Made by a program: the position numbers and the translations under genes. A stretch of DNA of 64,000 nt. Origin: an uncultured Candidatus Melainabacteria bacterium. GTDB lineage: Bacteria > Cyanobacteriota > Vampirovibrionia > Gastranaerophilales > Gastranaerophilaceae. Shown piece by piece: positions 5,004 to 64,000 of this stretch. The notes beneath the pieces were generated by a model, which saw only the letters and a list, made by a program, of their open reading frames with translations, had not been told where the DNA came from and made no database searches. Positions within the stretch are counted from its first letter, which is position 1; the number at the start of each line of letters is the position of its first letter. The stretch spans positions 1 through 64,000 of the forward strand of contig CATNBA010000002.1 in NCBI GenBank assembly GCA_950096985.1, written 5' to 3'.

Positions 5004-5734
5004 TTATATTTTGAAAGGATAATTATCCGGAATTTCCCAGCTGTTTTCCATAATCAATTTTGTACATTTACTAATTGCATTATTATCTTCAGGAGTTAAG
5101 GTTCCGTTTTCTCTTTTGAATGGAAAAACATCGGAACAATACTTATTTGGTCCTTTTGTTCCGTTAATATCAATTAAAACCTGATTAGTGTACCATATTT
5201 CTCCTGTAGCACTATATGTATTTTTGGGGTAAAAAACAACGGTTCCATCTGCCAACTGAAACAATAATTCATCCTTTCCTGTATAAACATGCCATTGTGC
5301 ACCACTCCATTGTTGTCTGAAATTGCCGTTAGTAGTTGGATATCCGCAATCCAGCATATCTTTGCATACCCTAGAACCTCTAAAATAAGGATGTACATAA
5401 ACTTCCTAAAAAACATTCAAATCAAGTGCAGCATTATTAGGCCAATCCTTTTGAGGACCGTTATCAAGTTCAGATAATCGAAAACCATTGTTGATAGTTG
5501 AATAAGCTTTTTTTAATCTTACAACAAGTTCTTGCTTCTTATGATTTTGAATAAGCGTTGGTATAGTTAAAGCTGCAACGACACCAATAATTCCTAAAGT
5601 AATTAATACCTCTGCAAGAGTAAATCCCAAGTGTGCCGCGTGACCTGTAACACGGCTGTTGCGTGAAATGTCGAAATTAATTTTTACACGAGCATCCTGT
5701 CGGGGGGGGGGCACTCAATGATGAATCTTAACAT
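5004..5734 (-). pseudogene. type IV prepilin-like (GFTLAEVLITLGIIGVVAAL) gene with C10 tract out of frame and an internal in-frame TAG
   Basis: RBS AAGGAG + ATG at 5734; C10 at 5702-5711 puts the ATG frame off by one; pilin frame 5714-5406 continues after TAG (5408-5406) as 5357-5004. Confidence 0.7.
5702..5711 (-). repeat. 10-nt homopolymer (C10 on coding strand)
   Basis: GTCGGGGGGGGGGCACTC on + strand. Confidence 0.98.
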
Positions 5735-18875: not shown

Positions 18876-19582
18876 ATGAATTTACAAGAAAAACTAAATA
18901 CCTTCGGGGGGGGGGCGCTTATCCGCTTGTAGGATTTACTCTTGCAGAAGTTTTGATTACTTTAGGAATTATAGGTGTAGTTGCGGCATTAACTTTGCCA
19001 AGTTTGATCCAAAATTATAGAAAACAACAGACTATTACAGGATTAAAAAAGGCTTATTCTGTTATAAATCAGGCAATGAAACTTTCTGAAATTGAAAATG
19101 GTCCGTATGAAACGTGGGAATCAGGTGCAAATATTACACCAAGGGCGTACATTCAAAAATATTTTTTACCTTATTTTAAAGGTGCACATTTATGCGATAC
19201 TTATCAAACCTGCGGATTCAAAAGTAATGCCCCTTATAAAACTGTTATAGGAACGCAGTCAACTGCGACCTTAACATATGAACATTATAGAATTCCATTT
19301 ATTACAGAAGACGGAATAATGTATAGTATTTCTGTTAAGGCAGATAATCGTAATGATGAAGGTATTATGATTGATGTAAACGGCTCTAAAGGTCCGAATA
19401 AAGTAGGAGTAGATTTCTTTAATTTTTATAGAACTAACAATGGAATTGTTCCTTATGGTGTTGGTTTAAGTATTGACGAGATTGATGCAAGTGTAGCCAA
19501 TGATATAAATTGCTATGCATGTGCGGCTAAAATAATTAAGGATGGCTGGCAAATAAAAGATAATTATCCGGTAAGGTTTTAA
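18876..19582 (+). CDS. type IV prepilin-like protein; out of frame as assembled (G10) from its RBS-supported ATG
   Basis: AAAAAGGAGTTGTATT-ATG; ATG frame reads MNLQEKLNTFGGGALIRL*; G11 or G8 would give MNLQEKLNTFGGG(G)AYPLVGFTLAEV...; track ORF uses an implausible TTG at 18869. Confidence 0.8.
18906..18915 (+). repeat. G10 homopolymer in prepilin leader
   Basis: CCTTCGGGGGGGGGGCGCTTATCC. Confidence 0.98.
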
Positions 19583-62426: not shown

Positions 62427-63317
62427 ATGGAAATTAGAGTTTTAAAGTATTTTCTTGCAGTTGTGCGTGAAGGTTCTATTACAGGAGCGGCAAATTCTCT
62501 GCATTTAACACAACCTACTTTGACCAGACAATTACAGGATTTGGAACGTGAACTGAAACAAAAACTTTTTATCAGGGGTAAGCATAAGGTATCACTCACG
62601 CCAGAGGGTTTGATTTTAAGAAAACGTGCGGAAGAAATTTTAGAAATGGTAGAAAAAACTCAAGCAGAGTTTCAATCAATTTCTGATACAATTTGCGGAG
62701 ATATTTATATCGGATGTGGTGAAACCGAGTCTATGACATATATTGCACAGATTTTTAAAGAAATACAACAAAATTATCCTGAAGTAAAATTTCATATTCA
62801 ATCAGGTGATGCTGATGATGTAACAGAAAAACTTGATAAAGGACTGCTTGATTTTTGTCTTTTAATTCAGCCTATTAATATCGATAAGTATGATCATATT
62901 ACACTTTCCGCAAAAGACGTATGGGGTGTTATTATGAGAAAAGACAGTGATTTGGCAAAAAAGGAGTTTATCCAACTTGAAGATTTAAAAAGATTACCTT
63001 TGATTAATTCTAGGCAGGTTATAAAAAAAATATCCTCAAAAAATCAGTTTATGGATTGGTTTCAAGGTGAGTTTGAAAATTTACATACGGTTGGGACATC
63101 AAATCTTGTTTATAATGCTGCAATAATGGTCAAAAGCGGATTGGGATATGCAATAACTCTCGACAAATTAGTTAATACGTCCGTTGAAAGTGAACTTTGT
63201 TTCAGACCCTTAAAACCTAAACTAGAATCAGCACTGGATATTGTATGGAAAAAAAATCAGATATTTTCGCCGGCTGCAAAATTATTTTTAGAGAAATTAC
63301 ATGAAAATTTAGATTAA
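62427..63317 (+). CDS. LysR family transcriptional regulator
   Basis: MEIRVLKYFLAVVREGSITGAANSLHLTQPTLTRQLQDLERELKQKLFIRGK. Confidence 0.93.
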   Translation: MEIRVLKYFLAVVREGSITGAANSLHLTQPTLTRQLQDLERELKQKLFIRGKHKVSLTPEGLILRKRAEEILEMVEKTQAEFQSISDTICGDIYIGCGETESMTYIAQIFKEIQQNYPEVKFHIQSGDADDVTEKLDKGLLDFCLLIQPINIDKYDHITLSAKDVWGVIMRKDSDLAKKEFIQLEDLKRLPLINSRQVIKKISSKNQFMDWFQGEFENLHTVGTSNLVYNAAIMVKSGLGYAITLDKLVNTSVESELCFRPLKPKLESALDIVWKKNQIFSPAAKLFLEKLHENLD

Positions 63318-63344: not shown

Positions 63345-63373
63345 TTGAAATTGTGGGGTAAATGTGTTATACT
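63345..63373 (+). promoter_or_regulatory. putative promoter TTGAAA-17-TATACT for prepilin locus 3
   Basis: TTGAAA 63345-63350; TATACT 63368-63373. Confidence 0.6.
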
Positions 63374-63398
63374 CTAAATATCAGAAAGGAGTTAAGAG

Positions 63399-64000
63399 AT
63401 GATTAAGTATTACAAAAACAAACTCCTCTCAAACCTTCGGGGGGGGGGCACTTATCCGCTTATGGGATTTACTCTTTCAGAAGTGTTAATTACACTTGGC
63501 ATAATTGGTGTTGTTGCAGCTTTAACTATGCCAACTCTTATTGCTAAGCAGAAAGAGAAAGAAACTGTAGCAAAATTAAAAAAAGTTTATTCTACATTAA
63601 GTCAAGCATTATTATCTGCAATTGCGGATTATGGAACAGTTGATGAATGGGGTTTAGTGTCATCAAATACTGGTGAAATTAATGATGATGGGCTGAAAGT
63701 ATTGGAACACGCAGGTATGAATGCGCTTGCCGATAGATTGCATAAATATATAAAAAGTGATATTCTTACAACCGGCTGGGATAAAGATGTTGTTCTTGTA
63801 AATATGCATGGAACACCTCTTGATCAGTGGTATGACAAGGGAGAACCAAATGCTCTCAGGTTACCTGATGGGACCATATTTATAATGGGACAAATTACTA
63901 CAAATTCATTATGCTCTAATCCTGATTTAAAGTCAGGCGGATATTGCTCTACTATTGTAGTGTGGTTTCCTCCCAAAAACAAGCAAAGGGTTGAAGGGAA
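63399..64000 (+). CDS. type IV prepilin-like protein, in frame at G10; truncated by window end
   Basis: AAAGGAG + ATG; MIKYYKNKLLSNLRGGGTYPLMGFTLSEVLITLGIIGVVAALTMPTLIAKQKEKETVAKLKK...; not in ORF track because it runs off the window. Confidence 0.85.
   Translation, partial: MIKYYKNKLLSNLRGGGTYPLMGFTLSEVLITLGIIGVVAALTMPTLIAKQKEKETVAKLKKVYSTLSQALLSAIADYGTVDEWGLVSSNTGEINDDGLKVLEHAGMNALADRLHKYIKSDILTTGWDKDVVLVNMHGTPLDQWYDKGEPNALRLPDGTIFIMGQITTNSLCSNPDLKSGGYCSTIVVWFPPKNKQRVEG
63439..63448 (+). repeat. G10 homopolymer in prepilin leader
   Basis: CCTTCGGGGGGGGGGCACTTATCC. Confidence 0.98.

Follow-up and report, generated by a model that had tools for sequence, protein, structure and literature searches.

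Does the uninterrupted run of 10 G residues in the leader of a type IV pilin-like gene act as an ON/OFF switch, and does the gene stand alone in this respect? The gene (here, the focal pilin) starts near the end of the 64,000-nucleotide stretch of DNA that was analyzed (the window), from contig CATNBA010000002.1 of an uncultured gut bacterium. Here, we describe the focal gene and its counterparts in the genome and across the order Gastranaerophilales, which, judged from sequence, probably form a genome-wide, phase-variable pilin repertoire with OFF as the default state.

Tract-bearing pilin genes of the window

The first-pass annotation had placed the G tract between an ATG with a ribosome-binding site and a prepilin motif, and direct reading of the window confirmed this layout (Table 1). 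The tract lies 40 nt past the ATG and 19 nt ahead of the TTT in G^FTLSEV. Read from the ATG at G10, the gene gives MIKYYKNKLLSNLRGGGTYPLMG^FTLSEVLITLGIIGVVAAL, with the cleavage site at GGA^TTT (63465-63470) starting the motif. It is ON at 10 G, as had been claimed, with the frame open to the end of its 270 codons. That 9 or 11 G would break the frame also held by eye: at G9 a TAA follows shortly past the motif, and at G11 a TAA comes about 30 codons on.

The type IV prepilin hallmarks (G^F-T-L-x-E and a hydrophobic N-terminal helix) were present in the focal gene. In profile searches it scored above the cut-off for TIGR02532 (18.6 versus 16.3) and just below that for Pfam N_methyl (PF07963). 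Residue 1 of the mature protein aligned with solved PilA/GspG pilins, over the N-terminal helix only and with weak E-values (best, 0.004). The variable part had homologues in most species of the genus (30 to 43% identity across the full length), among whose readable leaders some carried the tract and most lacked it. The best match in a genus-wide search for an orthologue was, from end to end, about 43% identical, and the focal tract itself was untraceable across species. Upstream lies a LysR-like regulator (named by eye; 62427-63317). Tail to tail with the focal pilin, just outside the window, stands a large repetitive protein (L077, 1271-4000, minus strand), whose C-terminus by eye resembles an autotransporter-type beta-barrel.

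Two further prepilin genes of the window had been said to carry such a tract; both tracts are real, and it had gone unnoted that both genes are out of frame at present. The second pilin matched ComGE/GspG-type models over its N-terminal region, with TIGR02532 above the cut-off. The third has an extra in-frame stop (5406-5408, minus strand) after 102 open codons, beyond which this frame goes on to encode the pilin C-terminus as far as 5004, and looks like a gene in early decay. At a GC content of 35.3%, 0.02 matches to nine consecutive G residues were expected in the window versus 6 overlapping matches found (three tracts of exactly 10), and none of the shuffled windows attained 6. A chance origin of these tracts is excluded, and the remark that a G10 run is highly unexpected in AT-rich DNA was justified.

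Table 1. Positions of the tract-bearing pilin genes of the window and their elements
Feature	Position	Strand	Remarks
Third switchable pilin	5004..5734	-	ATG 5734-5732 out of frame at C10, open at C11
C10 tract of third pilin	5702..5711	-	G10 on + strand
Second switchable pilin	18876..19582	+	ATG 18876 out of frame at G10, open at G11
G10 tract of second pilin	18906..18915	+	
Putative -10 box TATACT	63368-63373	+	Direct reading
Shine-Dalgarno AAAGGAG of focal pilin	63385-63391	+	Direct reading
Focal type IV pilin-like gene	63399..64000 in window, to 64211 on contig	+	In frame (ON) at G10; ORF of 270 aa
G10 tract in focal prepilin leader	63439..63448	+	Candidate slippage site
Prepilin cleavage/methylation motif G^FTLSEVLITLGIIGVVAAL	63465..63527	+	PF07963 match just below cut-off

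The genome-wide set and its distribution

The assembly surveyed (1.648 Mb, 98.8% complete, Gastranaerophilales) contained 49 runs of at least 8 G or C and 58 prepilin-motif matches. In 40 of the 49, a start codon lay upstream of the run and a prepilin motif within about 80 nt downstream, which places them in prepilin leaders. This count strongly bears out the multi-locus arrangement suspected from the window and answers, with enrichment, the genome-wide check for G/C tracts at prepilin leaders that had been proposed alongside it. All 40 loci had their own start codon, nearly always with a good Shine-Dalgarno (SD) sequence, and in this genome an exact TATAAT was found upstream of 17/39 starts versus 1/39 in a control stretch. 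The leader runs consisted of G (27) or C (13) and were mostly 10 bases long (31 loci), with 6 of length 11, 2 of length 12, and 1 of length 9. Exactly one frame class was open in 40/40 genes, a one-unit change toggling the intact frame; 10 loci are in frame now, 25 need one more base, and 5 need one fewer. Two of the 40, with a nearly identical 5' part, are at contig ends.

Matches to ATPases of the type IV pilus/type II secretion type (PF00437, over the cut-off at C6:46737 and three more places) and to a prepilin peptidase (PF06750, at C2:77540) make the processing and filament assembly of these pilins plausible. The genome also has a MutS_I match, so loss of mismatch repair as a driver finds no support as far as MutS goes.

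The remaining nine runs were in or near other genes, including those for a GT1-type glycosyltransferase, an acyltransferase-3, and an AAA ATPase, a list typical of contingency genes. G/C10 runs were located at L049 935-1861, L048 3242-5785, and L071 558-2132 (acyltransferase-3, GT1-type glycosyltransferase, and AAA ATPase). Elsewhere (G000:C1:54058), a G9 run parts open frames of 239 and 275 aa (L031 2567-3283 and 1734-2558), the latter with a PRTase-CE match; one more G would fuse both, which makes this a candidate non-pilin switch.

When 84,980 species genomes were scanned for the tract-prepilin pattern, at least 115 stretches matched; the matches listed included Candidatus Gastranaerophilales, Melainabacteria, Candidatus Scatousia, "Cyanobacteria bacterium SIG30," and, under what appears to be a wrong name, "Fusobacterium sp. 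CAG:439." In whole-genome searches, the G-type pattern was present in 20/33 species of the genus, one of which had 67 loci, and in 35/192 genomes and 11/45 genera of the order; the sampled Cyanobacteriota outside the order had none. A reversed-pattern control gave zero in all whole-genome searches, and the viral contigs scanned gave no match to the tract-prepilin pattern. Four species without the G-type pattern still had 24 to 103 prepilin matches, so the tract is a feature added to a large pilin family.

Frame states across the order

Frame states were counted at the 227 loci, in 44 genomes of the order, where SD and start were unambiguous. Only 28/227 were in frame and 199/227 were out of frame, with lengths of 8 to 12. 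A naive binomial comparison with one third in frame gave 3e-13; because the loci are related to each other, we place the emphasis on the per-genome mean (12% ON) and on the recurrence of the OFF excess in several genera. The anatomy and the multi-locus nature of the phase-variable pilins proposed from the window stood, and what had not been foreseen is that most copies are OFF (30/40 in this genome and 199/227 in the order). Among these loci the ON state of the focal gene is atypical.

Usual tract lengths were genus specific (8, 9, 10, or 11), strikingly constant within a genus, and nearly always missed the frame. In genus g1 the usual length was 10 and the frame opened at 11 (124 loci versus 12 that were ON at length 11); g16 had length 11 and opened at 10 (7/7), g19 had length 8 and opened at 9 (7/7), and g18 had mostly length 9 and opened at 10. 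Start codons that might bypass the tract were scarce: in 162/199 OFF loci the pilin frame held no upstream start codon at all, just 1/199 had an SD-supported one there, and downstream of the tract none of 151 OFF loci had an SD-supported start and 139 had no start at all. The OFF genes were nonetheless intact. An open reading frame of at least 120 aa was found in 148/151 complete OFF loci (median, 223), and dN/dS was below 0.5 in 51/51 OFF-OFF pairs (median, 0.14).

These data bear on the reading that the genes are decaying pseudogenes or assembly errors, the runs being functionless relics or miscounted homopolymers. A few genes do have extra lesions (the gene with the tract at 5702 and that at C4:55617), and homopolymer length in assemblies is uncertain, a caution that has been raised for annotated G-tract lengths (PMC9187656). 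But the same architecture recurs in dozens of independent assemblies with empty reversed-pattern controls, the OFF genes are intact and constrained, and miscounting would not spare the in-frame length in several genera. This reading is already largely refuted, and we give it very little credence.

The intactness of the OFF genes, their purifying selection, and the TATAAT upstream suggest that they are expressed often enough to be selected. Purifying selection on genes whose consensus is OFF could also mean that they are decoded despite the frame, and an out-of-frame majority of 30/40 and 199/227 leaves room for such recoding. The DNA length would then be fixed out of frame, and RNA polymerase slippage or ribosomal frameshifting would supply a low level of pilin in every cell. 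The lineage-fixed lengths (8, 9, 10, and 11) one base off at 199 of the 227 loci and the strong conservation of out-of-frame genes fit this, as does the stop that 187/206 loci have within 30 nt past the tract when read in the frame that a tract one base too short would set. However, the shift needed differs by lineage (+1 in g1, g18, and g19; -1 in g16), 28 loci are plainly in frame, G runs and C runs are both in use, like runs occur in unrelated genes, and RNA structure downstream is absent (mean folding z-score of +0.23 over 90 loci, with 1/90 below -2). Structured programmed ribosomal frameshifting was set aside, since +1, -1, and in-frame loci all occur, the direction differs by genus, and there is no downstream stimulatory structure.

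The explanation we favor is replication slippage at an array of OFF-biased ON/OFF switches, one per pilin and about 40 in the genome. A G or C gained or lost during DNA replication would shift the frame between the ATG with its ribosome-binding site and the prepilin cleavage site, and for each pilin the cell would make either the full protein or a short aborted peptide. As the leader would be cut away by prepilin peptidase, the mature pilin should be identical at any permissive length. With the usual length of the lineage out of frame, most cells would keep most pilins OFF and a small subset, whose members change, ON; the focal gene belongs to the minority that this length leaves in frame. We infer heritable ON/OFF differences between cells, with variation of the pilus surface in the gut as their role.

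In favor of slippage, lengths differ between loci, the runs are of G and of C and lie in unrelated gene families, and the direction needed varies by lineage. In one genome, two 5' modules that are 97% identical differ in state, one being G11/ON and the other G10/OFF. Against it stand seven close orthologue pairs between species (88 to 97% amino acid identity) with G10 in both members (7/7), the constancy within genera, and the MutS_I match, with no obvious case of mismatch-repair loss. Weighing the narrow length peak, the OFF majority, and the mixed states against the equal lengths in close pairs and MutS, we hold slippage to be likely and recoding unlikely; somewhat more doubtful again is the specific claim that dozens of pilins per genome are held one base off at lineage-specific lengths and recoded at a low level, with no mutational switch.

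Known systems and probable exchange of 5' modules

The best-known cases of poly-G switching are in pathogens; for gut commensals, they are two pilus loci of Bifidobacterium breve. In Campylobacter jejuni the poly-G targets are mostly surface modification genes and not one pilin family. Unlike there, 40/49 runs here serve prepilins, and MutS is present. Shared with C. jejuni are many intragenic G8 to G12 runs in surface-related genes and a narrow length peak (PMC8355987); an insertion bias at G8 and a deletion bias at G11 hold the tracts of that species at G9 to G10 (reviewed in PMC8355987).

In B. breve UCC2003, G tracts in sortase-pilus genes (bbr_0113 and bbr_1889) have been proven by deep sequencing, and bbr_1889 in culture was 93.4% G10 (OFF) and 6.5% G9 (ON) (PMC9187656). 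Both systems belong to gut commensals, and in both a run of about G10 to G12 early in the pilin coding region joins two frames, no usable start lies downstream, and the usual length leaves the gene OFF, ON being the minority state (PMC9187656). They differ in that B. breve (Actinomycetota) has two sortase-dependent pilus loci, whereas here there are about 40 type IV pilin-like genes with the tract, a candidate slippage site, in the prepilin leader. In its logic, the B. breve switch is the nearest to the present set, which is about 20-fold larger.

A gut lineage of non-photosynthetic Cyanobacteriota seems to possess a very large set of switchable genes from one family (40 loci here and at least 67 in a sister species), almost all of which are OFF at rest, and our literature search found no paper joining Gastranaerophilales with phase variation. 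If the system works as proposed, each population would be a mosaic of pilus types, with a bearing on colonization of the gut, immune recognition, and phage attachment. Misannotation of these pilin genes is to be expected because the start is out of frame. The default-OFF rule persists across genera despite their different usual lengths and, as a regularity, can be put to the test.

Neisseria offers two further comparisons. Its opa genes carry pentamer repeats where the signal peptide is encoded, a portion absent from the mature protein, and many loci switch independently; pilC encodes a pilus-tip protein, not a pilin. A repeat in a coding part removed from the mature protein is common to opa/pilC and the present genes, with about a dozen loci there versus about 40 here. 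The pilE/pilS system works by gene conversion from promoterless cassettes and has a G-rich element near the pilin gene. It shares with the present set a large pilin repertoire, most copies of which are unexpressed at one time, and a G-rich element by the pilin gene, but each copy here is a full gene with a start site of its own, and this is not a pilE/pilS-type system.

Exchange between copies is a separate matter. Some genes of one genome have a common 5' module (SD, ATG, leader, tract, and N-terminal helix; from about -40 or beyond to +150) and differ past it; tract-bearing leaders therefore seem to move among pilin bodies, which suggests an exchange of switch modules between pilin genes. 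Nearly identical 5' modules with different pilin bodies were seen in L257 484-683 versus L258 515-713 and in a CALUVV pair in L239. The tract itself is set in constant flanks: C precedes the G runs in 27/27 (63438 in the window), though C takes up only 11% of the third codon positions of these pilins, and C follows the G runs in 24/27 (63449 in the window), the element mostly reading C-G(n)-C; for C runs, the base ahead is G in 12/13 and the base behind is A or G.

Near-identical 5' modules that then diverge, which indicate that modules recombine, and constant C residues flanking the tract in both orientations would also suit a set of silent cassettes, in which out-of-frame copies are mainly donors to expressed pilin loci, as with Neisseria pilE/pilS, with the tract as a bystander or as a signal for recombination. 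We regard this as improbable, since the copies are whole genes, equipped with an SD-ATG and promoter-like boxes of their own, and at all 40 loci the tract falls precisely at the frame-critical position. Promoterless cassettes of the pilE/pilS type were set aside, given an SD-ATG in nearly all 40 loci and the enrichment of TATAAT.

Three leaders, L036 (G000:C4, about 2328-2466), L320, and L347, have tandem prepilin motifs (FTLAEVFLPHCTDCRKNAFTLAEV; TLAEG...AAFTLAEV) and are likely recombination products. In L033 (G000:C3, just after 34370), the interval between tract and motif has a copy, in inverted orientation, of a segment (TGGCGGGTCAAGCGGCA...GCTTG) that runs forward in other leaders.
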